DNA from: Conexivisphaerales archaeon
GTDB taxonomy: Archaea; Thermoproteota; Nitrososphaeria; Conexivisphaerales; UBA164
Assembly: GCA_030756715.1 (NCBI GenBank)
Contig: JAVBJD010000009.1
Location: 1-32,235, forward strand
DNA length: 32,235 nt
Direction of reading: 5' to 3'
Shown here: one piece after another, positions 9,688 through 30,955 of the stretch
Layout of the letters: the number at the start of each line of letters is the position of its first letter
Numbering within the stretch: the stretch's first letter is position 1
The notes under the pieces: model-generated
Database searches by the model: none
The model's input: only the letters and a program-made list of their open reading frames with translations
What the model was told of the DNA's origin: nothing
Made by a program: the position numbers and the translations under genes

Positions 9688-10092
9688 ATGAGCGACAGAA
9701 CTTTAATTGTTATAAAGCCTGACGCTGTAAAGAGGGGCCTTATTGGGCAGATAATAAGCCGTTTTGAAGCAAAAGGTTTCGTAATAAGAGAGCTAAAGAT
9801 GATGACCCTTACAAAGGAAAAGGCAGAAGAGTTTTATTCTGTTCATAAAGGGAAACCTTTTTTTAAGGATCTTGTTGATTTTATAACTTCTGGGCCTGTT
9901 GTAGCAGCAGTCCTGGAGGGAAGAAACGCGGTAGAAGCTGTTCGAATAATGATAGGGAGCACAGACGCTTCAAAAGCTCCCCCGGGTTCTATAAGGGGGG
10001 ACTTTTCCTTAGGGCTCACGGACAACAGCATCCACGCCAGCGATTCGTTGGAAAGCTTTCAGAGAGAAGCAAAAGCGCTTGATTTGATTTGA
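9688..10092 (+). CDS. ndk: Nucleoside diphosphate kinase
   Basis: [47 protein letters not shown]. Confidence 0.98.
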
Positions 10093-11186
10093 CAGAAAGC
10101 TATAAAGAATTTGCAACTTATAATGGCTTAAATTATATAAAGCAAGATACTGACTTCAGAAAATACGAAGCCATAGCGTTTGATGTGGATGGAACGCTCG
10201 TTGACTCGCGGTTGTCTTATAACGAGACAATCTATCATACCGTTTCCATGTTTTTTCAATGGTCAGTTGGTTTTAAACCCCCAAAGGATGAAATAAAGAA
10301 TTCGATAGCAAAGTTAAGGCTGACGGGCGGGTTCAACAATGACTGGGACACTTCTTATACCATTCTTATAGGCCTTTTCTCTGGCCTTCCAGATGAACTG
10401 TTAAAGATTATTTCATCTCCAGAATACAGGTTCTTCAAGAGCTTTACAAAGATTAAGGTTAACAGGGAAAGCTTGACAGAGGCATCTATAAAAGCACTGA
10501 ATTACCTGTTGATGTACGCGGACAACAGGGGGCTGCAGAGCATAGAAGAAGGGATCAGGAAGCTTTACAACAAAAAGGACAAGCTGAATTACCTGACTGA
10601 AATCAAAAACAAGCTGAATTACCCGAGCTTGCCGGGAAAAAGCATACTTTCGAGCGTTTTTGAGGAGCTGTACCTCGGGACAGACCTTTACACCGAAATG
10701 TGGCAGGTCGAGCCAGTTTTCAAGGTAAAAAAAGGACTTATAGAAGAAGAAAAGGTTGTGCTTGATAACGACGTCAAGTTATTCATTAAAAAGAGGTTCG
10801 GAAACAGGATAGGCATAGCAAGCGGAAGGCCAAGGAAAGCTGCAATGAGAACTCTAAAAGACCTTATCGGGAGCTTCTTTAACTCAGAGGGTTCTTTTTT
10901 CATAGATGACGCATACTACAAATCAAAGAACGAATGGCTCGGCAAGCCAAACCCATTTCTGATCGAACAGGTCTTCAAAAGCCTAAATGTACGCAGTTGC
11001 CTTTACATTGGGGATTCATACGAGGATATGTTAATGGTAAAAAACGCAAAAGACCACGGGTATGAAGCAGGGTTCGTCGGGGTCTACGGCTTTTCAGCAG
11101 ACCCAAAGAGCTTCGTTCATAAATTCATAGAAACGGGAGCTGACGCTGTTCTTCCTTCTGTAAACGATATAAAATTTTTATTTTAA
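10089..11186 (+). CDS. HAD-superfamily hydrolase with large cap insertion (TIGR01548-like, tentative)
   Basis: [20 protein letters not shown] motif [17 protein letters not shown] motif IV; about 250 aa between. Start overlaps ndk stop. Confidence 0.85.
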
Positions 11187-11297
11187 AGCTTAAAACACGA
11201 GCGACATTAACCACAAAGATTCTGAATTTGTTCTGCTTTTAAAAAAACGTTTGATTTAACAGTAGCATTTAAAACTTTTAATAAAAAACATATAAAT

Positions 11298-11741
11298 ATG
11301 AGCGTTAACGAGATCGAACACTCCGCGGGGGGTGTTGTGTTTAAAGAAAATAAAAGCGGTCCCCTCTACTTAGTGTTGATGAGCAAGAGGAGGATCTGGG
11401 AGTTCCCGAAGGGCCACCTGGAGCCCGGGGAAGATACCAGGATGGCCGCAATAAGGGAAGTTAAAGAGGAAACAGGTTTAAACGACCTGGAGATTTTTGA
11501 CGGCTTCAGCTTTACGATAAACTATGAGTTCTTTAAAAACGGAAGCAAGGTAAAGAAAGACGTGGTGTATTATATCATGAAGACGAATTCTCAGAGCGTA
11601 ACGATAAGTGAGGAGCACATAGGTTATATGTGGCTTTCCTATGCAAAGGCCCTTGACACTTTAACCCACAAGAACTCAAAAAACCTTTTGATGGAAGTAA
11701 ATTCCTGGCTGATGGCTCTCAACGGTTCGTGGCGAGCATAA
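11298..11741 (+). CDS. Nudix hydrolase (diadenosine-polyphosphate/MutT type)
   Basis: Nudix box GHLEPGEDTRMAAIREVKEETGL. Confidence 0.93.
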   Translation: MSVNEIEHSAGGVVFKENKSGPLYLVLMSKRRIWEFPKGHLEPGEDTRMAAIREVKEETGLNDLEIFDGFSFTINYEFFKNGSKVKKDVVYYIMKTNSQSVTISEEHIGYMWLSYAKALDTLTHKNSKNLLMEVNSWLMALNGSWRA

Positions 11742-11793: not shown

Positions 11794-11802
11794 TTTATAT
11801 AA
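11794..11802 (+). promoter_or_regulatory. TATA box TTTATATAA for the wHTH/ATP-cone gene
   Basis: About 30 nt upstream of the TTG start at 11829. Confidence 0.6.
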
Positions 11803-11804
11803 TA

Positions 11805-11818
11805 CTGTTAACTAACAG
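11805..11818. promoter_or_regulatory. Perfect inverted repeat CTGTTA-AC-TAACAG, operator candidate
   Basis: 6-bp perfect half-sites, 2-nt spacer, between TATA box and start codon of the HTH protein. Confidence 0.5.
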
Positions 11819-11828
11819 TCTAAGAGAT

Positions 11829-13646
11829 TTGAGCAGCAATCTTATGACAAAAAGGTTAAAAATAATATTTTCTGTACTCGCTTCAAAGAGCAGACTTGAG
11901 ATACTCAAAATACTTTCTGCAAAGGGTGGCATGACTTACACTGAGCTCAAGGAAGCTTCAGGCTTTACTCCAAAAAGAGAGTCCGGAAAGTTCGCTTATC
12001 ATTTGAAAAAGCTCGTTCAGCAGAACCTTGTAGTGCAGAACAAGCAGGAGAGGAAGTACATGATCGCCCCACTCGGCAGACTTGTGCTTTCTCTTGCAAA
12101 ACAGATAGAGGAAGAGTCACTAGTTTCTTCTGGCAGGCTTTACGTAAGGGAATCTTCTCAGAAGATAGAGGAATTCGACACTTCAAAGATAGTCCAGAGC
12201 CTTATAAAAGAAGCTAACGTGCCTGTTGAAGTTGCCCAGAACATAGCTAGCGAAGCTGAGTCAAGAATATACAAGTTCCAGCTGGCATACCTGACTTCAC
12301 CCCTGATAAGGGAAATAGTTAATTCAATTTTGCTGGAGCAGGGAATGGAACAGTACTGGAAAAAGCTGAGCAGGCTCGGAATACCGGTTTACGACCTTGA
12401 GCTCATGCTTGAAGATACTAGCAAAGAGGGTGAGGGTTTCGAGGACCTCGTCTACAGGGCGGCAGAAAGGATATTTTCAGATTATCTCGTAAGATCGGAC
12501 CTGCCAACAGACCTTATAGACGCTCATTTTAACGGAGAAATACACCTTCCTTACCCACATAACTGGATGTTCAAACCGGACATAGTTGCCCTTGACTTTA
12601 CCATGTTAAGCGAGAGCGTAAGCGCTCAGGGGGGTTCAAACTGGAACAGGTTTGTAAGCATGGTCTACGGTCTGTCAAGAGAAACGAATTCTGAAGTCTT
12701 TATAAAGGTGGACAGCGATTATCTGAAAAAAGTAAAGGGCGAAACCTTTACTTTGCTTCACAGTTTGTTGCCCAGCACTGCGAGGTCTCCTCTGATCACG
12801 ATCCACCTTGAAGACGCTGACGAAGAGCTGATAAAAGAGTACCGGGACTACCTTTTCAAAATAAAGAAGCCAAAAGTTGTTCTGAGCGTTAAAGGCAACA
12901 AGATAAAGGACAGCATACCTTTAATACTGGTAAACAACGACTACAAAACGGCAACGGGCTTCAAGTTGAGCGAAGAAAAGGGGCTTGAAATGGGGATAAT
13001 ATCAGCTTCAGTGAACCTGCCACATCTGGCAAATGAAGCGCAGAACGAGGAAAGCTATTTTAAAGTTAAGGTTCTTTTACTTAAGGACATACTGCAGGAC
13101 GCTATTGCACAGAGGAACAAGCTGTTGAACGGCAGGCTGCTGATGGGGCTTTTACCTTCTTTAAAGGAAATAGCGGTCAAGCACCCATCTGAATACATTA
13201 CTTCCTTGGTCAACCTTGCTGGCCTCAGAGAGAGCATGATAATGCTGAACATAAACCAAGATGAAGTAACAAAGAAGGAGACGGAGCTCATAGAGCTTTT
13301 GCAGGAAAAAGTTGGATATCCTGTTTCCTGGATTCAGGACGACTCCGGGGAAAGACTGGCTTACCTTGATTCGCAGAAGCTAGGAAAAAAGTACAACCCG
13401 CAACCGTATTCCCTTGGGCTGGAAGTTTATGAAAAAAACGGATTTGACGCTCAGGAGGTAAGGGAACTGAACAGGCACCTCAAGGGGGGCTTGAGATTAT
13501 CCCTGGGATTCCACATAGACGATAAGATAACTTACCTTTATAAAGAGAAAGAAATCAAATGCAAAAAGTGCGGCTGGATGAACCCAGTATCGCTGAAAAA
13601 CTGTAGACACTGCGGCTTTCCGCTTGAAATCTCAGTAAAAGCTTAG
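11829..13646 (+). CDS. wHTH + ATP-cone + NrdD-like (glycyl-radical-less) + C-terminal zinc ribbon; putative nucleotide-sensing regulator
   Basis: ArsR-like HTH (SKSRLEILKILSAKGGMTYTELKEASGF...FAYHLKKLVQQNLV); ATP-cone IEEFDTSKIVQSLIKEANV...VNSILLEQGM; NrdD-like HFNGEIHLPYPHNW, MGIISASVNLPHLANEA, SGERLAYLDSQKLG; only Cys are CKKC...CRHC near the C-terminus. Confidence 0.8.
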   Translation: MSSNLMTKRLKIIFSVLASKSRLEILKILSAKGGMTYTELKEASGFTPKRESGKFAYHLKKLVQQNLVVQNKQERKYMIAPLGRLVLSLAKQIEEESLVSSGRLYVRESSQKIEEFDTSKIVQSLIKEANVPVEVAQNIASEAESRIYKFQLAYLTSPLIREIVNSILLEQGMEQYWKKLSRLGIPVYDLELMLEDTSKEGEGFEDLVYRAAERIFSDYLVRSDLPTDLIDAHFNGEIHLPYPHNWMFKPDIVALDFTMLSESVSAQGGSNWNRFVSMVYGLSRETNSEVFIKVDSDYLKKVKGETFTLLHSLLPSTARSPLITIHLEDADEELIKEYRDYLFKIKKPKVVLSVKGNKIKDSIPLILVNNDYKTATGFKLSEEKGLEMGIISASVNLPHLANEAQNEESYFKVKVLLLKDILQDAIAQRNKLLNGRLLMGLLPSLKEIAVKHPSEYITSLVNLAGLRESMIMLNINQDEVTKKETELIELLQEKVGYPVSWIQDDSGERLAYLDSQKLGKKYNPQPYSLGLEVYEKNGFDAQEVRELNRHLKGGLRLSLGFHIDDKITYLYKEKEIKCKKCGWMNPVSLKNCRHCGFPLEISVKA

Positions 13647-13680: not shown

Positions 13681-14112
13681 TTAAACGCTTTTAGATGCAC
13701 ACTGAAGCATGTCCCTGACTATCTTCTTTATAGTGTTGACAACTATTGAGCTGGAGATCGTGCCTATCATGCCCGAGACTTTAGGGTCTGCAGAATAGCC
13801 AAGGTAGTTGCCATCGTCTGAACTTTTAAGATAAATGGTTACAGCCGATTCAAAGTTGCCCAGGTTGCTTGTCCCCTGCATCGAAAGCAGAGCTTCCTTT
13901 TTGAGCTGATCGTTTTTCTCTATGGAAACGGTAACGTCAAAAGTCCCCTTTATGAAGCCTATCCCCTGTTTTATCTTAGCTTTGATCACGTTGTTGGAAA
14001 CGTTCCATTCAACAACCCCGGGAACGCACTTTATTATCTTTTCAGGGTCTGACAGGTAATCCCAGACTTTATCTGGGTTTGCTTCTATTTTTTCGCTCCC
14101 TTCAATTTTCAT
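13681..14112 (-). CDS. coxG: CoxG-family (SRPBCC fold) protein
   Basis: MKIEGSEKIEANPDKVWDYLSDPEKIIKCVPGV and the following conserved pattern; adjacent to Mo-hydroxylase genes. Confidence 0.9.
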   Translation of the reverse strand: MKIEGSEKIEANPDKVWDYLSDPEKIIKCVPGVVEWNVSNNVIKAKIKQGIGFIKGTFDVTVSIEKNDQLKKEALLSMQGTSNLGNFESAVTIYLKSSDDGNYLGYSADPKVSGMIGTISSSIVVNTIKKIVRDMLQCASKSV

Positions 14113-14186
14113 TTATTTATAAAATTGGAAATCTGCTTATAAAAGTATTATTTCAAAAAAATATGAAATTTTTAACCGCTAAAAGT

Positions 14187-14672
14187 TCAGAACGTCTCAG
14201 GAGAGCCGTCTTTATAGAACGCCCTCGCGCTTTTAACAGCTTCTTTTATCTGAAAGTAAGTGCCGCACCTGCATATGACCCCCTTTAGCTTTTCGCTTAT
14301 TTCCTGGTCGTCAGCATCTGGGTTAGACGAAAGGACGCTGTGAGCTGTAGTAACAAAAGCAGGCGTACAGAAACCACACTGCATGGCCCCGTGCTTTACA
14401 AAAGACTCCATCAGTACCCTTGCCCTTTTATTGTTATATAGACCTTCAGCTGTCAGGATCTCTGAACCGTCAACTTCCACTGAAAGCAGCATACAGCTTT
14501 TCATGGGCTTATTGTCTATCAGGACCGTGCAGAGCCCGCATTCCCCTCTCCAGCAAGCTGCTTTAACGCTGGTTATACCGAGCCTGGTTCTAAGAGTGTC
14601 AAGGAGTATCTCGTTATCCTCGACAATTAAGTGCCTGAAAACGCCGTTTACATTAATTCTGATCTCTTTCAT
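14187..14672 (-). CDS. Mo-hydroxylase small subunit, two [2Fe-2S] (CoxS family)
   Basis: ACWRGECGLCTVLIDNKPMKSC; MQCGFCTPAF; VICRCGTY. Confidence 0.96.
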   Translation of the reverse strand: MKEIRINVNGVFRHLIVEDNEILLDTLRTRLGITSVKAACWRGECGLCTVLIDNKPMKSCMLLSVEVDGSEILTAEGLYNNKRARVLMESFVKHGAMQCGFCTPAFVTTAHSVLSSNPDADDQEISEKLKGVICRCGTYFQIKEAVKSARAFYKDGSPETF

Positions 14673-15525
14673 CTAAGAACACCTCTTTAACGGCCTGAAG
14701 AGAAAGGTATCTTATCACGTTCTTTCTGAAGTCAGAAGAAGCGAGGAGGTCGTCCACGGGGTTCACGTTCAGCTGAAGGTACCTCTCCAGCTTTTCTACG
14801 TTCGTGCCAAAATCTTTATCGAAGTCCCAGTCCACGTCTGACTCTCTTATCGTTATGGGAGTTTCAGATGCAGAACCTATTACAAGGTTGAACCTTTTTT
14901 CTTCAGTAAAATATGTCAGAGCGACAGTAGCGAGGCCGTATTCGCTTCCGTTTGCAAACTTCAGGTATGTCCCGCGAACCTTTCTCAAAGGTATGAGCGC
15001 CCTGCTGATTATTTCGTCATCGTCAACGTTGATCTGACCAAGTCCGAGAACAAGGCCGTTGACAGGCACAACCCTTGAAGAGCTTTTTTTCGATATTTCA
15101 GCTTCAGCTTCCATAGATATAAGGGCAGGATAAGCGTCACCCCAGGGCACAGCTTCTGCAAGGTCTCCAACTAGCGTTCCCATGTTCCTTATTGTAGGAT
15201 CCGCTATATTTTTGACAGCCCTGTAAAGTGTGGGCAGGCTGTTCTTGATAGACCCGGACTCAAGCTCGCTCAGGTGCACGTTTGCACCTACTGCAAGCAC
15301 TCCCCCTTTTATCTGTAGAGTTTTCAGCTCGGGCACCTTTGAAATGGAGATCACGTATTCTGGAGCTGTCAACCTTTCTTTCATAAAAGCAAGCAACCCT
15401 ACTCCGCCTGACATAATTTTAGCGTTCCCGCTGTGCTCGTGAAGAGAGCTCAGAAGTTCTTCGAGAGAATCAGGCCTTAAATATTTGAACTTTGGGAGAG
15501 TAAAATACGGTCCTCCAAAGCTCAT
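14653..15525 (-). CDS. Mo-hydroxylase FAD subunit (CoxM family)
   Basis: FKYLRPDSLEELLSSL, GGVGLLAFMKERL, TIRNMGTLVGDLAEAVPWGDAYPALI; overlaps neighbouring subunit genes. Confidence 0.95.
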   Translation of the reverse strand: MSFGGPYFTLPKFKYLRPDSLEELLSSLHEHSGNAKIMSGGVGLLAFMKERLTAPEYVISISKVPELKTLQIKGGVLAVGANVHLSELESGSIKNSLPTLYRAVKNIADPTIRNMGTLVGDLAEAVPWGDAYPALISMEAEAEISKKSSSRVVPVNGLVLGLGQINVDDDEIISRALIPLRKVRGTYLKFANGSEYGLATVALTYFTEEKRFNLVIGSASETPITIRESDVDWDFDKDFGTNVEKLERYLQLNVNPVDDLLASSDFRKNVIRYLSLQAVKEVFLDERDQN

Positions 15526-17918
15526 TCCGCCATTACCTCCTTCAGTGATTCCTGAAAGCTCTTCAGAGCTTTTGAAAAGAGTTCTGGCTTCTGCTTCATG
15601 ATCTCTCTCCAGACCTTTTCCGCGCTCATGGGCAGTTCGTTCATCTTTACGCCTGTTGCGTTAAAGACAGCGTTTGCTATAGCAGGGGCTACAGCTATCA
15701 TAACGTGCTCACCTATGCCCCTCGCACCTAGAGGACCGTCTTTCTGAGGGGTTTCAATGAAACTCTCTTTTATTTCAAAATCACAGTCTGTAATCCTGGG
15801 AACATAATAGTGCGTGAGGTTCGGGTTAAGCACCCAGCCCGAATCGTCGAACTTTATTTCTTCGAAAAGCGCAGAGCCGAGGCCCATTATAAAGCCGCCG
15901 TCTGCCTGGCCAATAAGGGTCAAAAGGTTGATGACCTTCCCGACGTCAAAAACCTGGACAGCTCTCAGCACCTTTATTTCGCCTGTTATCAGGTTCAGCT
16001 CCACTTCAACCGCTGTAGCTCCGTAGGTGTGAAAAACGGTGTTCGATCCGTGACCTTTTTCGTCCAGAAAAGTGTTCAGCACTGGGATGTAAGAACCCCT
16101 GCCTATCACAGGTCCTCCGACGCTCGTGCCATCGCTGAAAGTGTAGCCGTTTGCGAACTCCCTGAGCTCTTTCCTTATCCATGGATGTGTCCTTGAGAAA
16201 ACGTAACCCCCAGAGACCTCAACGTCGTCTTCTGGAACCCTGAAAACAGCCGAAGCGATCTTCTTAACCTGACCCTTGGCGTCCTCTATAGCCCTCAAAA
16301 CTGCTATCCCGTCAGAGAAAAGCCCCCTGCTTCCAACTGTCTGCCACGTGTAAGCGCTCCTGTCAGTGTCTACTCCTTCAGTCTGAACAACCTTAACGCT
16401 TTCAAGTGGGACTCCAAACTCTTCAGCAACTATCATGGCAAGGCCTGTTGGAGTTCCCTGTCCCATGCTTCCCGTTCCAGTTATCACATCAACAGTACCG
16501 TCTTCGTTGAGCTTTACGACGGCAGAAGCAGCCGCGTTGGATGGCTGAGATGGAGCCTTCACGAGCATGGAGAGGCCCTTCCCAATGACCGTCCACGGAA
16601 CAGATGGGTTTTCAACCTTATCAATTTCTATAAGCCCTGCGGCTGTCCTCAAAACGCCTTCCGGGTTGCCTTCATCTTCCCTTACCTTTTCTCCGGTTGC
16701 CCTTTCTGAAAAACCGGGTTTGAGCAGGTTAACTGCCCTTATGCTAACGGGATCCATTTTGAGCTCATGTGCGGCCCTGTCAAGGATCTGTTCAAGGGGC
16801 CAGTGATTTTCAGGATGACCGAAACCCCTCATAGCAGTAGTTGGTATCTTGTTTGTGTATACGGCCAGAGATTTCACGTTAACGTTTTCTATTTCATAAG
16901 AGCCTTCTGCTGAATAACCGGCTGTCCTGGCTACGTTAACAGTATAGTCAGCATAAGCCCCTGCGTCCAGAAAGAACTCCGCTTTGTAAGCCAGAAACCT
17001 GCCTTCTTTTGAGAAACCGGCCCTGACTTTAGCCAAAAAGAGATCCCTGCTTGGGGCTGAAGTCATCTGTTCAGCCCTGCTGAGCACCAGCTTTACAGGC
17101 CTGTTGCCAGCTTTTTTAGAAAGAAGAGCAACCAGGGCTTCCCAACCCAGCCCTGCTTTTAAACCGAACCCACCTCCTATCGGCGGCGCGTGGACTATGA
17201 CCCTGTTCAAAGGAACGCCAAGGGATTTTGAAAGCAAAAACCTAGTAGCAAAAGGCGACTGGACGCTGCTCCAGAGCTCAACTACGTTGTCAGGCCTCCA
17301 GTAACCTATTGAGTTCTGGACTTCCATCGCAGCATGACTTATCTGGGGAATCCTGAATGTGTCCTCTATTACAACGCTCGATTCTTTCAACCCTTTTTCG
17401 ACGTCCCCTTTTACTAAGTTGAACTCGTTTGCTATGTTTGTTCCAGGGACTGGCCTGAACCCCGGGAAAACGCTGTAGTCAGCGAGGTCTTCATGAACCA
17501 AGGGAGCATCTTTTTCAAGAGCTTTTTCAACGTCCAGGACAGGCTCCAATGGTTCGTAGTCGACGTTAACCTTTTCAGCAGCTTCTTCCGCTGAGCTCAT
17601 ATCGGTAGCGATTACCGCCGCAACAGGATGGCCGACCCATCTAACTTTGTTAACCGCGAGCACATCCCTGTCTGAAACGTAAATGCCGAGCCTGAAAGGG
17701 AAATCCTTGCCTGTTGCTACGGCTACAACGCCAGGAACTTTGAGGGCTTCCTCAAAGCTCAGTGACCTGATCTTTGCGTGAGCGTACTTGCTTGTTACGA
17801 GTTTAGCGTAAAGCATCCCGGGAAGGCTTATGTCAAAACTGTACCTGAGCGTTCCTGTAACTTTAAGCCAGGAATCTACCTGAGGCACCTTTTCGCCTAA
17901 TACTGTTCGAGAGTTCAA
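15522..17918 (-). CDS. Mo-hydroxylase large subunit (xanthine/aldehyde dehydrogenase-CoxL superfamily; not form I CODH)
   Basis: PPIGGGFGLKAGL, TTAMRGFGHPENHWPLEQ, GPLGARGIGEH (catalytic Glu). Lacks the AYxCSFR form I CODH loop. Confidence 0.94.
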   Translation of the reverse strand: MNSRTVLGEKVPQVDSWLKVTGTLRYSFDISLPGMLYAKLVTSKYAHAKIRSLSFEEALKVPGVVAVATGKDFPFRLGIYVSDRDVLAVNKVRWVGHPVAAVIATDMSSAEEAAEKVNVDYEPLEPVLDVEKALEKDAPLVHEDLADYSVFPGFRPVPGTNIANEFNLVKGDVEKGLKESSVVIEDTFRIPQISHAAMEVQNSIGYWRPDNVVELWSSVQSPFATRFLLSKSLGVPLNRVIVHAPPIGGGFGLKAGLGWEALVALLSKKAGNRPVKLVLSRAEQMTSAPSRDLFLAKVRAGFSKEGRFLAYKAEFFLDAGAYADYTVNVARTAGYSAEGSYEIENVNVKSLAVYTNKIPTTAMRGFGHPENHWPLEQILDRAAHELKMDPVSIRAVNLLKPGFSERATGEKVREDEGNPEGVLRTAAGLIEIDKVENPSVPWTVIGKGLSMLVKAPSQPSNAAASAVVKLNEDGTVDVITGTGSMGQGTPTGLAMIVAEEFGVPLESVKVVQTEGVDTDRSAYTWQTVGSRGLFSDGIAVLRAIEDAKGQVKKIASAVFRVPEDDVEVSGGYVFSRTHPWIRKELREFANGYTFSDGTSVGGPVIGRGSYIPVLNTFLDEKGHGSNTVFHTYGATAVEVELNLITGEIKVLRAVQVFDVGKVINLLTLIGQADGGFIMGLGSALFEEIKFDDSGWVLNPNLTHYYVPRITDCDFEIKESFIETPQKDGPLGARGIGEHVMIAVAPAIANAVFNATGVKMNELPMSAEKVWREIMKQKPELFSKALKSFQESLKEVMAE

Positions 17919-19427: not shown

Positions 19428-20636
19428 TTATTTTACCAGTTTTATGAGAAGTTCAGATATGTCCATCACGGATTCATCCCTGTAAAGGTTTACAAAGCAT
19501 ATAGGGCATGAGGTTACTATGATTTCTGCGTTCGTTTGCTTGAGCTCTCTAAACCTCCTTTCGGATATCTTTTCAGATGCCTTGGGGTAGAAAGCCTCTA
19601 TCGGGCCTCCGCAGCAGTACGTGTTTTTACCGTTATGTAAAGGAAGGGTGAGCTCTGCAGTCTTTTTTATGAAGTCTCTGGGAACGTTGTGGTCAGTGTG
19701 CCTTACAAGGTGACAGGGCTCGTGGTAAGTAACCCTTTTGTCCAGCTTTGACAAGTTCAAGGAGTTCAGATGATCCAGGTAAAAGGAAACGTTAAAGTCA
19801 AAGTCGCTGACGTACTTTTTATACTTGTTTATCAGAACGTCATAAGTGTGGGGATCAACGGTTATTATGTTCTTTACCCCTTTTTTATGAAACAGATCGG
19901 TAACAGTCTGGGCGTACTCCTTGAAGTCAGAAACGTAGCCCATGTCTATCATGAGCGTCCCGGGATAAGGCTCTTCTTCCCCGAGGTAAGAGAACTTAAC
20001 GCCCGCTTTCCTCAAAAGATAATATATGTTCTTGAGCTGGGCTTCTGACCTTTCCTTTATCTTCTTATCGTAAAATTTTGAAAATATAAAAGAAGGGTTA
20101 CCCAAAGAAGAGAGAAGAGGAGTTATGAACCTGTAAAGCTCGCCGATCGACTTCAGCATCTCTCCGAGCTTTTTGTTATATGCCATAAGCTGGTACATGT
20201 GCCCAGTGTAGAGGATCGTTTGGTAAGAGCTGTCAAACTCAAGACCTTTAGACCACTCCGTAACTTCTTTTGTAAGTCCAAGGGGATCCCTGTACTTCTT
20301 TATGAGCACAGTTATCATCCTTGCAACCTGATGCTCCTGGTCCTGAACCTGGCCTTCAGCAATAGCCTGCTTCATAAGCTCGCTTACTACACCGGAGTTT
20401 ACGTGTGCAGGGCAAACCTGAAAACAGGCGTAGCAGTCAAGGCACGATTCGAAAGGGTCCCTGAAATTGAGGACCCTGTTTCCGTTCAGGAACTCTTTGG
20501 CGAGGTTTATTCTTCCTCTTGCGCCCATCGAAGTCCTGTAGTCAAATGCAGGTATGGTTGGGCAAACAGCCTCGCAGAATCCACAGTTTATGCATTGCGA
20601 TGTTTCTAACGTGAGATCCTTGAAAATTTCATTCAA
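19428..20636 (-). CDS. glcF: Glycolate oxidase/2-hydroxyacid dehydrogenase iron-sulfur subunit (GlcF-like)
   Basis: Two 4Fe-4S motifs (CINCGFCEAVCP, CLDCYACFQVCP) and C-terminal CCG domain (HEPCH...TYCCGGPIE...SCPICF). Confidence 0.9.
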   Translation of the reverse strand: MNEIFKDLTLETSQCINCGFCEAVCPTIPAFDYRTSMGARGRINLAKEFLNGNRVLNFRDPFESCLDCYACFQVCPAHVNSGVVSELMKQAIAEGQVQDQEHQVARMITVLIKKYRDPLGLTKEVTEWSKGLEFDSSYQTILYTGHMYQLMAYNKKLGEMLKSIGELYRFITPLLSSLGNPSFIFSKFYDKKIKERSEAQLKNIYYLLRKAGVKFSYLGEEEPYPGTLMIDMGYVSDFKEYAQTVTDLFHKKGVKNIITVDPHTYDVLINKYKKYVSDFDFNVSFYLDHLNSLNLSKLDKRVTYHEPCHLVRHTDHNVPRDFIKKTAELTLPLHNGKNTYCCGGPIEAFYPKASEKISERRFRELKQTNAEIIVTSCPICFVNLYRDESVMDISELLIKLVK

Positions 20637-21993
20637 TAAGCTTTCCCCTGTTGAGGATGTCCCTGGGGTCGAAGACGTTCTTTATCTTCTTCATCAGTTC
20701 AAGGTTTATCTGGTTTCCCCTGTAGGCGAATTCTTTCTGCAGAAGCTCTTTTTTCTCCAGGCCTATCCCGTGTTCAGCTGAAACACAACCACCGTGTTTC
20801 ACTGCTATCATCGCTGTTTCTAAAAGAAGCTCTTTTGCTTTATCGATCTCGTTGGGACCTGTGAATATGTTGAGGTGGACGTTGCCATCGCCTATATGGC
20901 CGAATATGGAAACCTTCATTCCGCTGGACTGAATGGCTCTGTAAATTTCATCTATTGTTTCTGAAATCTTTGAAGGGGGCACAACTATATCCCCGATGAT
21001 AACCTTCTGTTCCGGCTTATCCCTTTCTAAAAGCAGGGATGAATAAAGGCCCTTCCTTAATTTCATGGCGTTATCCATTTCAGCCTGATCCTTTATAGTT
21101 CTCACTTCTATTGGGTCGGTTTCTTTAAGAGCCTTCAGTGTTTCATCGCTGTTTTCAGAGGTTATTATTATCAGAAGGGCCTTTGCTTTATCAGGGTAAG
21201 GTATGCCGTAGCCCTTAACAGCGTCCATGGATATTTCGTCTAAAAATTCAGCCGTCAAAGGTATGAGCCCTCTCTCGTTAAGCGTGCCAATTACGTCTCC
21301 AAATTTCTTATAACTGTCATAGAAGACCAGAAACATCGTGTCCCTCTTTGGCAGTGGAGCTATCTTAAGAATGGCTTTCGTTATTACAGCAAGCGTGCCC
21401 TCGCTCCCTACCATGAGAGCAGTGAGGTCGTAGCCCTCTGACCTCTTCAAAGTTTTTTCACCGAACTGAGTTACAGTACCGTCTGGGAGAACGACTTCCA
21501 GCCCAAGAACCCACTCTTTGGTCGCACCGTACTTTGCTCCCCTGACCCCTCCTGCGTTAGTGTTTATCGACCCGCCTACTGTTGCCGCTATGTCGCTCGC
21601 CGGATCCGGAGGATACATGTACCCATATCTTTCCAGATACGCGTTCAGTTCCCCTACCCTGACGCCCGCTTCAGCTATTACGTACCTGTCCTTTATGTTA
21701 ACTTCTAAGATCTTGTCAAACCTTAGCATGCTCATGACTATCCCTCCTTCTGGAACAGAAGAACCTGTTAACGAGGTGCCTCCTCCTCTAACGTAAACAG
21801 GTATGTTGTTATCGTAACAGAGCTTAAGGATCTTTGAAACTTCAGAAGTGCTGCCGGGAATCACCACGGCAATGGGTTTCTTACCCTCAATGTAAGAAGC
21901 ATCCTTAACATAAGGGACTATGTCCTCGTACTTAGTCAAGACATATTCCTTTCCAACGATCTTTGCCAGCTCGTTTGTAACGCTCATCATCAA
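20629..21993 (-). CDS. glcD: FAD-linked glycolate/D-lactate dehydrogenase (GlcD-like), copy 1
   Basis: VYVRGGGTSLTGSSVPEGGIV, YPPDPASDIAATVGGSINTNAGGVRGAKYGATKEWVLGLEVVLPDG, GDGNVHLN, SAEHGIGLEKK. Confidence 0.95.
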   Translation of the reverse strand: MMMSVTNELAKIVGKEYVLTKYEDIVPYVKDASYIEGKKPIAVVIPGSTSEVSKILKLCYDNNIPVYVRGGGTSLTGSSVPEGGIVMSMLRFDKILEVNIKDRYVIAEAGVRVGELNAYLERYGYMYPPDPASDIAATVGGSINTNAGGVRGAKYGATKEWVLGLEVVLPDGTVTQFGEKTLKRSEGYDLTALMVGSEGTLAVITKAILKIAPLPKRDTMFLVFYDSYKKFGDVIGTLNERGLIPLTAEFLDEISMDAVKGYGIPYPDKAKALLIIITSENSDETLKALKETDPIEVRTIKDQAEMDNAMKLRKGLYSSLLLERDKPEQKVIIGDIVVPPSKISETIDEIYRAIQSSGMKVSIFGHIGDGNVHLNIFTGPNEIDKAKELLLETAMIAVKHGGCVSAEHGIGLEKKELLQKEFAYRGNQINLELMKKIKNVFDPRDILNRGKLIE

Positions 21994-22033
21994 TATAATA
22001 TATAATTTTATATATAAACGATGTTTTGAAATA

Positions 22034-22057
22034 CGTTAATAAAAAACGCGTTAATAA
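22034..22057. promoter_or_regulatory. Direct repeat CGTTAATAA x2 (22034-22042, 22049-22057) with palindrome AACGCGTT (22045-22052), upstream of the glcD1 TATA
   Basis: Exact 9-mer repeated at 15-bp spacing, just upstream (minus-strand sense) of TATA-like tract 22008-22018. Confidence 0.45.
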
Positions 22058-22073
22058 TAAAAATCATTCTTTT

Positions 22074-24878
22074 CTAAAAATAATCGTATATGTAGTCGTG
22101 TATCTGAAGGATTTCTTTCGGCAGTTTCTTTTTCTTTATGGCGTTAACTATTTCGTCCCTTGATGGATTACCATCATTATCCCTGTAGACAGGTTTCAGA
22201 TCTCTGTCAAGGTAATATATTGCATCCAGAAGTTTCTCTCTTGTTTCAGTGTTTTTGTCTGCAAGCGAGAAAAGAACCCTTGCGCTGTGCTGGATGTACT
22301 TTGGAGACAGTATCTGCCTCTTTAGCACGTCCATTATGAATGGAGCTTCCCTGCGGTCAAACATGGGCTCGTTGGCCTTTAACAATCCCAGAACATAACT
22401 GTACTTGAGGCCAAGCTTATCCGATATGCTCCTTGCGGCTTCGTTCAGGGTCAACTTTTTCTCATAAGTAGGCTCCTTACCGTAAGTTCTTGAAACTGCA
22501 TCCTGCACAGAGTCAATGCTCTCCAGAACTTTCAGCATTTTATCGCTGAACTGTACGTTTAGGAGCTCAGCGATCTTTTTCACAACGTTCTCGTCGAGCT
22601 CTTTGTAGAGCACAATCTCTTTCAGGACTTCGTCGAGCTTCTGAGAAACGTCTTCATATGTCTTTCCGCCCTCCACGCCTATTGCGCTTATCGCCAGCCT
22701 CATAGCTACAAGCCTGTCGTAATCTTTGTAGAACTCAGCCGTCCACTTATAGTGCTGCTCCCATATCTTCTCGAAAAGATCCCTGTCAAATGTTGTCCCA
22801 GCTTTAACTTCGTAAACGTTTTCGTCCGGGATGACTCCATCCTTAGTGAGCTTTGGACCTTTAACATAGCCGTCCTTAGTTATCTTTGCTTTGTTGTTAG
22901 CAAGGGTCCAGAGCCATGAAACGAATATCCTGTACGTTGCGAGGTCGTTCATAAACCTTACAAGCCTGTTTGCGAAGGCCCTATAGTCGTCTATAGCAGC
23001 TGCAAGGTTTCCGTTCAGGACCTGGAAGCCGTAGTTTGCGGCCATGTAGAATGCGTGCTGTATGTTTTCAACAGTTACGTCGCCTTCTGCAATGTCGTAA
23101 AGGCTGTTCCAGAGGTCCTTGCCCCTCCAGAGTTTATCAGATGATACGAACTTTTCGGGACTTTCAAGCATGTCCTTTGTTATAACCCAGGGGGTTATCT
23201 TGCCGTTCTCGTCAACAAGGCCGAGGCTGTTGAGCAGCTTTTTCTCGTCCTCAGTTAGCCCGCTCTCAACCTTCGGAGCAACCCTTTCACCGTTCTGTTC
23301 TTCCCAGACGACAGGAGCATCCAGCATCTTCTGTAGCTCAGATATGTCAGCCCTGAGCGGGCCGTTTCCAGCAGCAACGTACTGGTCGTCAGGAGAAGCA
23401 ACCCAGCTCTGTCTGTACGCGTCGTACAGCTTACCCTTTACCCTTCCGCTGAGAATATCTTCAAGCGTTATTTTCTTATCAGATGGGTCGTCTTTTGCTA
23501 CAAAGGAAGCCTTTTTGTCCGAAGCGCTTGAATCAGGAACGAATGTTGTCTTATTGTTTTTCGGGTCCTCTTCGGGGACAAAGATAAGGCCTATGAGCCT
23601 TTCCCTTAGCTTGTCGAGCTTCATAGCCCTGAGAGTCACCGCGTTGTGTCTGTTCCTTCCGTACGCGTCGGACTTCTGGTAGAGCATAACTGCTGCCATG
23701 CCGCCTATTGGAGCACCGTTCTTCAGTTCTCCGTCCTTGATGCCGGCCATAACGTTGAGAAGAGCGTTGTACCTCTGGTAGGCCATCATGTGAGGAGAAG
23801 TCATTCCCATGCGAGAACCGTTCTGCGGGTCGGGGAGTATCTTTTCGTTCTTCCACATCTCAATAAGGCTGGCAGTGTAGTCCCACCTTCCAACGTTAGC
23901 GCCTATAAGCCAGTACCTCCACGTCCACATTATGGCCGGAAGGTGCCTGCCTGCGTTTCCCTCTTCGTAAAGGGCTTTGAACTTTATGAGGCTGCCGGGC
24001 TTTTCAGCGCCCATCAGCTTTTCTAACTTCCATATAGCTTTGGCCAGCATGAAGGCTTCCTGAGGCGTCTGGGTCTTCGGCAGGTAGAAAAGCACAATCC
24101 TGCCTGCTTTTTTCAAAGAATCATAATCGTTCAGCGCGTGGACAACCAGGTCAACGACGAAAGAAGGTGCCGGTTTCCCATCGATCTCAACGTTAAAGGT
24201 AAGCAGATGAATGCCCGGGATCCTGTGGAAGCTAGCGGGCCACTTTTCCATCGGTTTCTGCATCTTGTAAACCCTGACCTGACCCTTTTTCTCTATCCTT
24301 ACTTCCATGAGCTGACCGGCCAGTATCTTCTTTTCGTTCAGCCTGGATTCAAAAAGGCCGATGGAGGATTTGTCCCTGCTGCTGATCGGTATGTAATCAG
24401 GGGGTGCAGCGTCTTCATCGTCCGGACCCATTGTCGCAGCAACGTCAGCGTTTATCTGCTTTATTGCCATGTCCGGAGGGCTCCATGGCCCTGTTATCTC
24501 AAGTCCTGGGTTCTTAAGCGGGTGAGCGTAATCCGGGATGGGGACGAGGTCGTTCAGACGCCACGCCAGAGGCGTGTCCTTGCCCAAAAAGTTGTCGATC
24601 AGGCCCTGAACGATTTCTCTGTAAGTCCTCTTTTCCCCCGTAACCGGGTCCTCGTACACTTCATCCCATTTAGGAATAGAGTACTTTTCCCTTACTTTCT
24701 GGGGGGAATCAAGAAGTTCCCTTCTCTTTTTAAGGACCTCTTCCCAGAGGTTCTTAACTTCATCGTATACCTGGGCTATCACGTCTTCCACGACGAGCTT
24801 TCTGCCGTTTACGTTTTTTTCACCGAAAAGCTCAGAGTATTTTTGAGCTACCCTGTTAGAAAGTTTAACCCTTTCCAT
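22074..24878 (-). CDS. Large archaeal-type malate synthase, 934 aa
   Basis: LFYLPKTQTPQEAFMLAKAIW, GANVGRWDYTASLIEMW, GMTSPHMMAYQRYNALL, GAPIGGMAAVMLYQ correspond to malate synthase LPK, GxNxGRWDYxxS, MTSPxMxAY and GGMAA motifs. Confidence 0.88.
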   Translation of the reverse strand: MERVKLSNRVAQKYSELFGEKNVNGRKLVVEDVIAQVYDEVKNLWEEVLKKRRELLDSPQKVREKYSIPKWDEVYEDPVTGEKRTYREIVQGLIDNFLGKDTPLAWRLNDLVPIPDYAHPLKNPGLEITGPWSPPDMAIKQINADVAATMGPDDEDAAPPDYIPISSRDKSSIGLFESRLNEKKILAGQLMEVRIEKKGQVRVYKMQKPMEKWPASFHRIPGIHLLTFNVEIDGKPAPSFVVDLVVHALNDYDSLKKAGRIVLFYLPKTQTPQEAFMLAKAIWKLEKLMGAEKPGSLIKFKALYEEGNAGRHLPAIMWTWRYWLIGANVGRWDYTASLIEMWKNEKILPDPQNGSRMGMTSPHMMAYQRYNALLNVMAGIKDGELKNGAPIGGMAAVMLYQKSDAYGRNRHNAVTLRAMKLDKLRERLIGLIFVPEEDPKNNKTTFVPDSSASDKKASFVAKDDPSDKKITLEDILSGRVKGKLYDAYRQSWVASPDDQYVAAGNGPLRADISELQKMLDAPVVWEEQNGERVAPKVESGLTEDEKKLLNSLGLVDENGKITPWVITKDMLESPEKFVSSDKLWRGKDLWNSLYDIAEGDVTVENIQHAFYMAANYGFQVLNGNLAAAIDDYRAFANRLVRFMNDLATYRIFVSWLWTLANNKAKITKDGYVKGPKLTKDGVIPDENVYEVKAGTTFDRDLFEKIWEQHYKWTAEFYKDYDRLVAMRLAISAIGVEGGKTYEDVSQKLDEVLKEIVLYKELDENVVKKIAELLNVQFSDKMLKVLESIDSVQDAVSRTYGKEPTYEKKLTLNEAARSISDKLGLKYSYVLGLLKANEPMFDRREAPFIMDVLKRQILSPKYIQHSARVLFSLADKNTETREKLLDAIYYLDRDLKPVYRDNDGNPSRDEIVNAIKKKKLPKEILQIHDYIYDYF

Positions 24879-24903
24879 TTTAAGTTATATTTAAAAGATG
24901 TTA

Positions 24904-24912
24904 TTATATAAA
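24904..24912 (-). promoter_or_regulatory. TATA box of the malate synthase gene
   Basis: Minus strand TTTATATAA about 30 nt upstream of the ATG; suggests a leaderless transcript. Confidence 0.55.
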
Positions 24913-24989
24913 CCTTTCACATAATAAGAAGATGCTAGACAAACGTGTAACTTTTTTAAACAGAATATTAAAAAGCTATAAAACAGTTT

Positions 24990-25601
24990 ATGCTAACAAA
25001 TAATGTGGAAATAAAAGCTGAAAAATTGAATTCATATGAGTGGAAGGTTAAAGATCTTGTGATAGATGATAGGATTGGAACTTTTAGCAAAGTTTTCCAG
25101 AACCATGGGGGCTATTTTTTCGCTGTTGAGAGGAAAGCGCTGTATGATACAATGTCTGGCATAGTAAAGGGAAGAAGCTCACTGGTTTACACGAACCTCA
25201 GAGCAGAATACGAAGAAACTGTAAAAAAGCTTGGACTGGATAGGGTTATCAGGCTTGACAAGAACTCAAAAGTTGATGCAAAGAAAGCCCTTTTCGACGT
25301 TGAAGTTGGTATAATGGAGCCTGATGCGCTTGCCGCAGAATCAGGATCAATAATTCTGTTTGATTTTGACGCTACAAAGAGCTTCGTAGCATTTCTTCCC
25401 GAGATATTCATAGCGATAGCCGATGAAAGCCTTATGTACGATACAGTGCCAGAAGCCGTGGGAGCTCTGACCAAAAAGCACAACAGGTTACCGGCAACGA
25501 TACAGATAGTTAACGGGCCTAGCAGGACCGGCGACATAGAAAACAAGATAGTTAGGCCTTCTCACGGCCCAAAGGACGCTTATCTGATAATGGTGAGGTA
25601 A
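24990..25601 (+). CDS. lutC: LutC-like LUD-domain protein
   Basis: DALAAESGSIILFDFDATKSFVAFLPEIFIAIADESLM, QIVNGPSRTGDIENKIVRPSHGPKDAYLIMV. Confidence 0.88.
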   Translation: MLTNNVEIKAEKLNSYEWKVKDLVIDDRIGTFSKVFQNHGGYFFAVERKALYDTMSGIVKGRSSLVYTNLRAEYEETVKKLGLDRVIRLDKNSKVDAKKALFDVEVGIMEPDALAAESGSIILFDFDATKSFVAFLPEIFIAIADESLMYDTVPEAVGALTKKHNRLPATIQIVNGPSRTGDIENKIVRPSHGPKDAYLIMVR

Positions 25602-26732
25602 ATGAGCTACAAACAGGTACACAGAAAGATACTAAGGGCTCTCCAAAAGGAAGACCTGAGGAAGGGCTCAGAGGCAGCTACAAAGGACGAGCTGAAAAAG
25701 AGGAGGTACGCCATAGAAGCTCATAAGTACTCTTTAAAGTGGGCAGAAGACGTAAAGAACGCAAAGTCTTCAATGCTTTCTGACATAGAATCTTCAGTTG
25801 AAAAGTTCAGAGAAGCTTTTGAAGGTAAAAACAAACACTTTTACTTTGCGAAAACGCCTGAAAACCTGAAGAACATAATATACAGCATTATAAAACCAGG
25901 AGATGTAGGAGTCAAAAGCAAGAGCATGGTCGGAGAAGAAATAGAGCTCAGGCAGTTCATGGAAGGGAAGGGCATAAAGATATACGAGACGGACCTCGGT
26001 GAATTTCTGATCCAGCTCGCGAACGAAAAGCCGGCGCACATGGTAACGCCGGCAGTCAATATGAGCGAAGAAAGGGCGAGAGAGCTGCTAGAGCCAGTTG
26101 TAGGAGAGAAACTCAGCGACGTAACGTCAATGGTCCTTGGAGTTAGGAAGTTCATGAGAAAGATATTCTTTTCAGCCGACTTCGGCATGGTTGGCGCAAA
26201 CGCGCTATCTGCTGACACCGGATCAGTGATCTTCATAACAAATGAAGGCAACGGGGCTCTGACCTCGACGCTTCCAGACAAGCTTATAGTGATAACTTCT
26301 GTGGAAAAGATATATCCGACGCTTCTGGATGCTATAAAGGCTGTTACCACTCAGGCCATCTTCAGCGGTTTTGAGTACACTACTTACGTGCACATAATAA
26401 ATGGACCCTATGATACGTATGGCCCAAAGGAAATACATTTGATAATGCTTGACAACGGCAGAATCAGAGAAGATGACCTTAAAGAAACCCTTCTCTGCAT
26501 AAAGTGCGGAGCATGCCAGTTCGCCTGCCCTGTATTCCAGGTAGTTGACGGTGCCTGGGGGCACATTTACACTGCTGCAATAGGCGTTCCGTGGACAGCT
26601 ATAACAAATTCAAAGGATACAGCAAGGTCCCTTGCAGCTTTTTGCCTTGAATGTGGTAAATGCAGGGAAGTCTGCCCGATGAAGATAGATATACCTGAGC
26701 TAATAAGAAAAATAAAAGCAAGAGAGGTTTAA
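25602..26732 (+). CDS. lutB: LutB-like protein: LUD domain plus 2x[4Fe-4S] ferredoxin domain
   Basis: KSKSMVGEEIELRQFMEGKGIKIYETDLGEFLIQLANEKPAHMVTPAVN; CIKCGACQFACP and CLECGKCREVCP. ATG directly follows lutC stop. Confidence 0.9.
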   Translation: MSYKQVHRKILRALQKEDLRKGSEAATKDELKKRRYAIEAHKYSLKWAEDVKNAKSSMLSDIESSVEKFREAFEGKNKHFYFAKTPENLKNIIYSIIKPGDVGVKSKSMVGEEIELRQFMEGKGIKIYETDLGEFLIQLANEKPAHMVTPAVNMSEERARELLEPVVGEKLSDVTSMVLGVRKFMRKIFFSADFGMVGANALSADTGSVIFITNEGNGALTSTLPDKLIVITSVEKIYPTLLDAIKAVTTQAIFSGFEYTTYVHIINGPYDTYGPKEIHLIMLDNGRIREDDLKETLLCIKCGACQFACPVFQVVDGAWGHIYTAAIGVPWTAITNSKDTARSLAAFCLECGKCREVCPMKIDIPELIRKIKAREV

Positions 26733-26734
26733 AA

Positions 26735-27040
26735 TCACTTAACGGCGTTCAGCTTTTTCGCTATGTAGTCCCTTGCGTATATCGCCAGCTCCGCGACGTC
26801 GACGCCGGTCGGGCACTCGATGTAACATCTCCTGCAGGTGTTGCACGTATAAATAGAATCTATTGCCTCTTCGATCTTGAAGTTGGGCTCGTTCACCATG
26901 GCTTTTATCAGGGTTACCCTGCCACGGGGGCTGTAATACTCGTTCATCCCGTGAACGGCCCAGCTTGGACACGAGTAAACGCAGAAGCCGCACCTTATGC
27001 ACTTCTGAGTTACCTGTTTAAGTATTTCTTCTGAGTTCAT
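26735..27040 (-). CDS. 2x[4Fe-4S] ferredoxin subunit (HdrC / split GlcF N-terminal half)
   Basis: CIRCGFCVYSCPSWAVHG...SPRGRVTLIKAMV...CNTCRRCYIECPTGVDVAELA. Confidence 0.88.
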   Translation of the reverse strand: MNSEEILKQVTQKCIRCGFCVYSCPSWAVHGMNEYYSPRGRVTLIKAMVNEPNFKIEEAIDSIYTCNTCRRCYIECPTGVDVAELAIYARDYIAKKLNAVK

Positions 27041-27043
27041 ATA

Positions 27044-28102
27044 TCAAAGGACCTCCACGAGGTCGTAGAGCTTGAAGCTGGAATTTGAAACGTAGCCTGC
27101 GGCCCTGAACATCATGTCGCACGCTGGACAGGAAGTCACTATGTTGCTTGTACCTGTTGCAAGGAGCTCTTCGAGCCTTATCTTTGCTGTCCTTACGGCA
27201 GCCTCCGGATCAGTGTATTCAACGCCTCCGCCATCGCATCTTGTTCTCAACCTGTTATTCGGAGGATCTATCACTTTAAAGCCTGAAGCTGATATCAGGT
27301 TTCTTGGCTCTTCAGTAACCCTCAGATACCTTGCTAGGTAACAGGGGTCGTGGTATACGACCTTTTCATTCTGTTCTTTCTGTCCAGATGGTTTGATCAC
27401 TTCTGATATGTGCTTGACTTCAATGTCAAACCCGTTCAGGAACTGGGGGTAAAACTTTTTAAAAACAGTGGCTGTAATGGGGTCCATGGTTATGATTCTT
27501 TTTACACCGTAATCCTTCAGCTTCTTGTAAACGCCGTTTGCAACTTCTGTAAAATCGTCGAGAAGCCCGAAAGTGTGCAGGGCTACCCCTGAGTCTGGCT
27601 CGTTCTTTCCAAGGTAAGCTATGTCCACACCGTTGCTCTGAAGCACCTGAACGCCTTTTCTCAGAACCCCCCAGTAGTACTGGTTCCTTGCGTCGTTTTC
27701 TCCAGCTATCTTCCTCAGCTTTGCTAAAGTCTCCGAAGAAACACCCAGCAGCTTACCGAGAGAGCTCATTGGAGATTTTAAGAGCCTTATGACGTCCTTC
27801 ATCGTGCTCTTGTAACCCAGATACTTTGCCTTTTTTGCCATGTCTAGCATCTGGGCTATGCTCATGCCTTCTTTTTTGGCAGTGTACTCAAGCAGCAGAG
27901 CTGTTTCAGCATAACCCATGTATGAATACATGCCCGAGTAGAAGATAGTTTCACCTCTTTCCTTTATGTTAAGGCCATTGCTCCACTGAGAAAGCTCTTC
28001 CTGAGGCACTCCTACAGGATTACCGTATTTCAGTATAGTTTCCTTAGTGAAGTTTAGAACAGCAAATATCTCTCTGTGCCTTTCACTCATGCCATTCTTC
28101 AC
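27044..28102 (-). CDS. CCG-domain (HdrB / split GlcF C-terminal half) protein; likely start near 28090
   Basis: Homologous in layout to the GlcF C-terminal half: DPCYLARYLRVTEEPRNLI...RTRCDGGGVEY...SCPACDMM. Confidence 0.85.
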   Translation of the reverse strand: MKNGMSERHREIFAVLNFTKETILKYGNPVGVPQEELSQWSNGLNIKERGETIFYSGMYSYMGYAETALLLEYTAKKEGMSIAQMLDMAKKAKYLGYKSTMKDVIRLLKSPMSSLGKLLGVSSETLAKLRKIAGENDARNQYYWGVLRKGVQVLQSNGVDIAYLGKNEPDSGVALHTFGLLDDFTEVANGVYKKLKDYGVKRIITMDPITATVFKKFYPQFLNGFDIEVKHISEVIKPSGQKEQNEKVVYHDPCYLARYLRVTEEPRNLISASGFKVIDPPNNRLRTRCDGGGVEYTDPEAAVRTAKIRLEELLATGTSNIVTSCPACDMMFRAAGYVSNSSFKLYDLVEVL

Positions 28103-29493
28103 CTAGAGCGTATTTGTCCGGGTTGAGTATGTTCTTTGGATCAAACAGCTTCTTTATCTCTTTCATGAGCCTGTAAACAGGCATCTGATTCCTTACCTTA
28201 AACTGTTCCAGCAGCATGTCTTCCTTGAGCTTTCCAATTCCATGCTCAGCTGTGATAGTGCCGCCGAGCTTTATGGCGAGCTCGTTTATCTCTCTTGCTG
28301 CTTTTTCAGCCCTCTCCCACTCTTCTTTATTATTCATGTCGGCACCTATGTTCGGGTGAAGGTTGCCGTCCCCAGCATGACCCACTGTTGCTATGAATAC
28401 ATTGTACTTCTTTCTTATCTCATCAACACCCCTAAGAGCATCCTTTATCTTCGACAGGGGCACAGCTATGTCTCCATCTATGAAACCAGGGTAAAGGTGC
28501 CCGGGAGCTGTGAAAGCTACTGCTCTCACGTCGAGGAGCTCGTTCATCGTTTGCGGATCTTCAGCCTTTATTATCTTTGCGGCGTGGTTTTCGTTCATTA
28601 TCTTTACAACCCTGTCTGCAACCTTTTCAAGGCCTTCCGCATGTCCGTCAACGTCAACAAGGACCATGCCGCCGTCGAGCGCAGGGTAATTGTATCCCCT
28701 GACCTTGTTTGCGGCCTCTATCCCTTGTTTGTCAGCAAATTCTAAAATTAAAGGGTTGACGCCTTCTCTCCTTATCCTGAAGATCGTTTCTCCGGCGTCG
28801 TCCAAGCTGTTGAAGAAACCGGCAACCCTGATTATCTTTTCAGGCAAAGGCATCATCTTAAGCCATGCCTTTGTAATTATCGCCAGAGTGCCTTCGCTTC
28901 CAACCACAAGCCCGAGAAGGTCGTAACCGGCCCTATTCTTGTAAGTGCTTTCGCCAAAATAAGTTAATGTGCCATCGGAAAGCACAACTTCAACTTTGAG
29001 AACCCAGTCCCTCATCACGCCGTACCTTGCTCCCCTCATACCACCTGAGTTTTCAGCAAGAGCTCCCCCGATGGTTGCGACCCTGCTGCTGGCAGGGTCA
29101 GGAGGGAAAAAGAAGCCGTGCTTCCTGCATTCTGTATCTACATCAAGCACAGTGGCACCGACTTCTGCTTCAACGATTCCGTTGTCTACATCGACCTTTA
29201 TCTGGTTAAGAGCTCTCATGTCCAGAACAATGCCCCCGCGAGCTGGAACCACCGCCCCTGTAACGCTTGAGCCAGAACCTCTTGCTACTATAGGAACGCC
29301 GTACTTGTAGGCAACCTTTACAACCTCAGGAACTTGCTCTCTTTTAGTTATATGAACGACCACTTCAGGCTTCCTCTTGTATGCGTCAACAGCGCCCTGC
29401 TGGAAAAGCAACCTGCTGGCTTCATCAAGAAGAACGTTTTCAGGGCCCACGATAGACCTTAATTCGGATATCCACGGATTTTGGGCTTCCATT
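28083..29493 (-). CDS. FAD-linked glycolate/D-lactate dehydrogenase (GlcD-like), copy 2; ORF opens at 29615 but start likely 29493
   Basis: PIVARGSGSSVTGAVVPARGGIVLDM, FPPDPASSRVATIGGALAENSGGMRGARYGVMRDWVLKVEVVLSDG, GHAGDGNLHPN, TAEHGIGKLK. TATA-like tracts lie between 29493 and 29615. Confidence 0.93.
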
Positions 29494-29668
29494 GTGCGAT
29501 TATATAAAACGTTAGAATATAAGTTTTTACAAACGTCTTTTTTAGAGCCTTTAAAACATGCGTTTTTGCAAGCAAAAGCTTTTTTATCTGTATGGTTTTC
29601 TAACTGCACTTTCATGCTGCTACCGTGCTTCTAAAAAGTTATATATCCATAACACCTAATAAAAAACC

Positions 29669-30088: not shown

Positions 30089-30091
30089 GCC

Positions 30092-30928: not shown

Positions 30929-30955
30929 AAATTAAAAAAATAATCTTATGATTTT

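Follow-up and report, generated by a model that had tools for sequence, protein, structure and literature searches.

The window, that is, the whole stretch of 32,235 nucleotides analysed here, carries on its forward strand (11829..13646) a gene with a TTG start for a 605-aa protein, delimited by its open reading frame, Pfam matches and orthologues. From the N-terminus the protein consists of a winged HTH, a domain resembling an ATP-cone, and a pseudo-NrdD region. Directly upstream (9688-11741) lie genes for a Nudix hydrolase, a HAD hydrolase and a kinase of NDK-like type; the Nudix gene seems to adjoin the same gene, in varying orientation, in other genomes of the window's own family (f1 in the numbering of families used below). 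On the opposite strand, adjoining this gene, positions 13681-17918 encode large, medium and small subunits of the CO-dehydrogenase/xanthine-oxidase type together with a CoxG-like protein. An apparent lactate/glycolate oxidation cluster occupies 19428-32212, with two GlcD-like FAD oxidases, a lactate-permease-like transporter, Fe-S (LutA/LutB-like) proteins on both strands and, at 22074-24878, a malate-synthase-like protein of 934 aa.

The winged HTH (residues 13-87; 11865..12089, forward strand) is of the ArsR-like type, with Pfam scores of 41.1 bits for DUF7347 (E-value 2e-10, cut-off 27.6) and 27.8 bits for HTH_20 (2.5e-6, cut-off 27); the domain that marks ArsR-like regulators is hence present. 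ArsR/SmtB-type regulators share such an N-terminal winged HTH; in the window protein, by contrast, the HTH is devoid of cysteine, the presumed sensor is the RNR-derived body and not a metal site, and the NCBIfam metalloregulator score of 32.6 stays below the cut-off of 55. Residues 105-179 (12141..12365, forward strand) match the Pfam ATP-cone above its cut-off (7.6e-8), with VRESSQKIEEF in place of the KRDG hairpin according to the hairpin alignment. The dead NrdD body, at about residues 196-573 (12414..13547, forward strand), was recognized by profile and alignment comparisons and has cysteine at neither catalytic position. It is followed by a C-terminal zinc ribbon, CKKC...CRHC (13560..13613, forward strand), the equivalent of the NrdD zinc site in profile alignments. 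All four cysteines of the protein reside in this ribbon, none before residue 578, and the chain ends directly behind it, ahead of where the glycyl-radical loop would stand; an RxxGY loop is absent. The sequence-only reading had described the ArsR-like N-terminus, the cone behind it, the confinement of the four cysteines to the terminal ribbon and the missing loop, and each of these points was borne out by the Pfam matches and by a cysteine survey of all 605 residues.

A TATA-like box, TTTATATAA (11794..11802, forward strand), was read from the sequence and is conserved in same-genus relatives; its position fits a nearly leaderless transcript from near the TTG. Two contigs from the genus of the window bear the names Thaumarchaeota EvPrim.Bin21 and Nitrososphaerales KMA_Bin22. 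Between this box and the start lies a perfect palindrome, ACTGTTA-AC-TAACAGT (11804..11819), for which 0.07 matches with up to two mismatches are expected per window. First read as an operator, it was downgraded to a weak candidate for an autoregulatory site, because the exact 16-bp form occurs just once in the window's genome and is degenerate even within the genus.

Descent from NrdD and loss of the catalytic residues

By itself, the window sequence reaches an E-value of 0.011 against Pfam NRDD, under the cut-off, and 3e-4 against the NCBIfam NrdD model over residues 390-448. A family profile built from 26 relatives of the window protein returned four NrdD structures as its top matches in the PDB (4coi at 6.8e-13, then 4u3e, 9d3x and 1h78), and profile-profile comparison with true archaeal NrdDs gave a probability of 99.6 and an E-value of 3.3e-24 over 447 columns, which take in the whole protein behind the cone. 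Orthologues from the ammonia-oxidiser family f7 score 52-81 bits against NRDD (model positions 275-529), and three distant relatives with degenerate loops attain 227-316 bits. Thus the NrdD-like region noticed earlier, weak when judged from the single sequence, stood up once the body was compared with NrdD by family profile; on these comparisons it is a genuine descendant of class III RNR (NrdD), unambiguously so when relatives are included. Orthologues that match over the full length, at 29-81% identity, were found throughout the class and the phylum, so the finding is not due to chance. Since the ribbon aligns with NrdD's own zinc site, it is, on that alignment, this very site and no added domain; it is missing in a few relatives. 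Structure prediction from the window, L001 and L002 sequences yielded a pLDDT of 38 and was given no weight.

Catalytic residues were compared in an alignment of 45 family members with six true NrdDs. Cysteine is found at the first active-site position in 0/45 members and at the thiyl position in 0/45, while both cysteines are present in 6/6 of the NrdDs, the placement of single columns in this fast-evolving region being approximate. Within the class, the ribbon cysteines are the only conserved ones. No member of the class has the glycyl-radical loop. More distant relatives show degenerate versions of it (SRVSAK, RSSATY), and family f13 retains the loop glycine and lacks the cysteine. The protein shares with NrdD the succession of cone, body and four-cysteine zinc site, with homology across the whole body, whereas the thiyl cysteine, the second catalytic cysteine and the RxxGY loop are gone and an N-terminal HTH has been added. 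Judged by these residues, the window protein and the whole family are CATALYTICALLY dead, in agreement with the earlier statement that anaerobic reductase chemistry looks impossible. The three distant relatives with degenerate loops look like intermediate stages, because they still score so highly against NRDD. Scores above 300 bits in some distant relatives and the glycine kept in f13 could be taken to indicate a working anaerobic RNR, operating by unusual chemistry or with a partner that supplies the missing loop, but the catalytic cysteines are lacking in every one of the 45 members, the loop is missing in the class, and the hosts, ammonia oxidisers among them, carry nrdJ. Such an enzyme is already strongly disfavoured, to the point of being barely conceivable.

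Some members (L051 from genome G046, and L175-L177) retain HTH and cone, with the zinc site or a large part of the body gone (L051 is without the zinc site; L177 is down to 550 aa), which suggests that the body is still eroding there. As a separate observation, an in-frame TGA breaks the true nrdD of a genome from the window's genus (L074 in G003) into two ORFs. Its counterpart in G010, which belongs to the same family, is intact; decay of nrdD seems to be under way in this lineage.

The distribution of sequence conservation was compared in nine sampled f7 genomes. All nine have one and the same HTH protein sequence (100%), although the nine stretches of DNA that encode it diverge by 17% at the nucleotide level. 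Identity is 92% in the cone and 70% in the pseudo-NrdD body, next to about 86% for f7 NrdJ, an approximate value, as one of six sequences is truncated. Overall, the body is the least conserved part (31%). Because the HTH is invariant in f7 in spite of the nucleotide divergence, DNA binding looks like the most constrained function of the protein. A decaying gene fusion devoid of function would account for the fast-evolving body and for the shortened members L177 and L051; it is hardly compatible with reading frames that are intact in nearly all matches phylum-wide, with very strong purifying selection on the HTH and with conserved synteny, and neither frequent stop codons nor relaxed selection on the HTH were seen among family members. 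This explanation is considered very improbable. Below, the protein is called the regulator, as a working name.

Distribution, gene neighbourhood and promoter elements

Within the class, the protein occurs in families f1-f3, f5, f7, f9 and f10, and in f4 as a copy cut by a contig end; beyond the class, many families of the phylum have it. Searches of complete genomes from several other families did not find it, and apparent matches in f6 were rejected as unrelated HTH proteins with neither cone nor NrdD body. Families f7, f9 and f10 are regarded as ammonia oxidisers, since archaeal AmoA is carried by all members tested. In f7 genomes, NRDD matches are limited to the regulator and short partial matches elsewhere.

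The positions of regulator and nrdJ (class II RNR) were tabulated. In 39/40 ammonia-oxidiser genomes (f7 33/34, f9 3/3, f10 3/3) nrdJ directly follows the regulator in the same orientation, the single f7 exception being a 210-contig assembly. The two genes are convergent in f2 (4/4), and likewise in f4 (G013), where the nrdJ contig ends inside the regulator gene and retains its last 70 aa. In f33 the regulator is followed on one strand by glutaredoxin and a true nrdD, and in f1 (G000, contig 54), f3 and f5 it lies apart from nrdJ. A position next to nrdJ or nrdD, in the same direction, would also fit a protein that acts on the RNR enzyme itself and modulates its activity, its body or cone forming mixed oligomers with NrdJ or NrdD and its DNA binding serving autoregulation alone, and cones are known to drive oligomerisation in RNRs (PMC11226230). 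Against such a partner speak the HTH as the most conserved part (100% in f7), the body, its likely interaction surface, as the least conserved, and a linkage that extends beyond RNR to pyrBI; direct action on the enzyme is thus an unlikely account.

The pyrB and/or pyrI genes adjoin the regulator in 11/19 distant loci, mostly in convergent orientation, one pyrB/pyrI pair having been identified with Pfam and the remaining pairs read by sequence likeness; OTC-type carbamoyltransferase genes lie near it in two further distant loci. This association suggests targets beyond RNR, and it would also suit a protein whose main or ancestral role is the control of pyrimidine biosynthesis, with the RNR link secondary. 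The pyr neighbours are, however, mostly convergent and not co-transcribed, and an RNR gene is the neighbour in the ammonia oxidisers, f2, f4 and f33, which makes a primarily pyrimidine-related role improbable compared with control of RNR.

The nrdJ promoters of f1, f2 and f4 have in common a dyad, TTGTMAA-N6-TTKACAA, placed directly before the TATA box in f1 and f4. With one mismatch permitted, it occurs at 0-7 sites per whole genome; the exact form is found once genome-wide in G006, G007 and G013, always at nrdJ, and twice in G016, one copy at nrdJ. Its presence at nrdJ is partly circular, because the motif was derived from those promoters, so that only its genome-wide rarity and its recurrence across families count. 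In the window's own genome the dyad is weak (GGGTCAAAATGATTTCACAA, p about 0.06 against shuffles). A related footprint, KTGTNAA-N5-TTGANC, stands out within the otherwise variable intergenic region of f7 nrdJ promoters. The dyad was not found at nrdJ of f6 and f8, families without the regulator, nor at nrdJ of f5, f9 and f10, families with it, and none of three other dyad sites inspected has a nucleotide gene beside it. The f4 genome G013, from which the regulator gene seemed to be missing, was considered as a counter-example to the link between motif and regulator and rejected as such, its nrdJ contig ending within the regulator C-terminus.

The f7 regulator promoter holds an extremely conserved element of its own, distinct from the nrdJ footprint. 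As a motif of a wider regulon, this element (GTCAYAARTCTTAWTTAC) was rejected, since close matches occur only at the regulator and others are at control level. Elements upstream of the regulator, GTCAYAARTCTTAWTTACT in f7 (e.g. L022, L027) and CGTAAAATCTTTTAGAC in f2 (L010-L012), are conserved far beyond the surrounding DNA, and the f7 element GTCAYAARTCTTAWTTACT is unique in the genomes tested.

A dead reductase as candidate regulator of nucleotide supply

The architecture, the NrdD descent, the loss of the radical residues, the HTH conservation, the gene adjacency and the common dyad are computed observations. The protein is read here, with a probability of roughly 0.7, as a transcription regulator of nucleotide supply, chiefly of RNR, that arose from a class III RNR which lost catalysis; it is probably a missing switch for nucleotide genes, because a dead enzyme is fused to a DNA-binding domain and usually stands beside such genes. 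We infer DNA binding, the sites bound, repression rather than activation, and a ligand. The ArsR-like winged HTH, probably dimeric, would bind the dyad at the RNR promoter and perhaps also the regulator's own promoter, and the degenerate ATP-cone together with the NrdD body would serve as sensor. Nucleotides (dNTPs, ATP/dATP or substrate NTPs) may shift the dimer or oligomer state of this sensor, and the oligomer state would set DNA binding and with it the expression of nrdJ (or nrdD, or pyr), much as in bacterial NrdR.

With respect to the ligand, the canonical V-x-K-R-D-G hairpin has become VR[TSE]S-like in every aligned family member. In the NrdR cone, K50 and R51 of this hairpin contact the phosphates (PMC9110341). 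Direct sensing of ATP/dATP by the cone is accordingly a weakened proposition, and a ligand, if any, may bind differently, as KRDG is lost. The earlier idea of an NrdR-like nucleotide-sensing regulator has therefore fared unevenly: the dead NrdD body, the HTH fusion and the RNR linkage in several families speak for it, while the altered cone detracts from its ATP/dATP part. NrdD enzymes bind dNTPs also at a specificity site at the dimer interface (PMC11226230, PMC12662201), for which reason the inherited body is a possible sensor; nucleotide sensing, if present, may thus employ a changed site in the cone, or else the body, where the former specificity site for dNTPs is one example.

NrdR proteins comprise 140-220 aa and bind DNA by an N-terminal zinc ribbon (PMC9110341). 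They resemble the window protein in uniting a DNA-binding part and an ATP-cone in one polypeptide and in their genomic tie to RNR genes. On the other hand, the NrdR combination of N-terminal zinc ribbon and cone within 140-220 aa, and the KRDG hairpin, are lacking here; instead there are a winged HTH, a cone without KRDG, a whole dead RNR body and a C-terminal zinc site in 605 aa. The protein is most likely a regulator analogous to NrdR, of separate origin, and not a member of the NrdR family. NrdR is reported to be rare in archaea (PMC9110341), and the regulator, located beside nrdJ in nearly every ammonia-oxidising archaeon examined, offers a testable candidate for the archaeal tuning of RNR expression.

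BirA, PutA and the repressors of the ROK family are enzyme-derived regulators, and the window protein would be akin to them in reusing an enzyme fold as sensor for a regulator of its own pathway. To our knowledge, no RNR-derived transcription regulator has been described, and none was found in the literature searched. The genomic context of the dead-NrdD regulator is a new finding; an earlier description of the regulator itself was not found in the open-access literature searched. In a wider reading, given about even odds, RNR-derived regulators operate throughout the phylum, the dead enzyme sensing the dNTP/NTP balance via its inherited allosteric surfaces and controlling pyrimidine synthesis and the active RNR, which is of class II in aerobes and of class III in anaerobes; the principle of NrdR would then have been invented a second time, independently. 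It would be a clear case of an enzyme that keeps its regulatory body, loses its chemistry and comes to control the pathway to which it once belonged. Present-day relatives would still display intermediate stages of this change, such as degenerate glycyl loops and a neighbouring true nrdD. Along with these proteins, a 268-aa protein was encountered at 850-1656 of contig 138 in G000 (L035), in which a partial ATP-cone that keeps KRDG is fused to an unknown C-terminal region.
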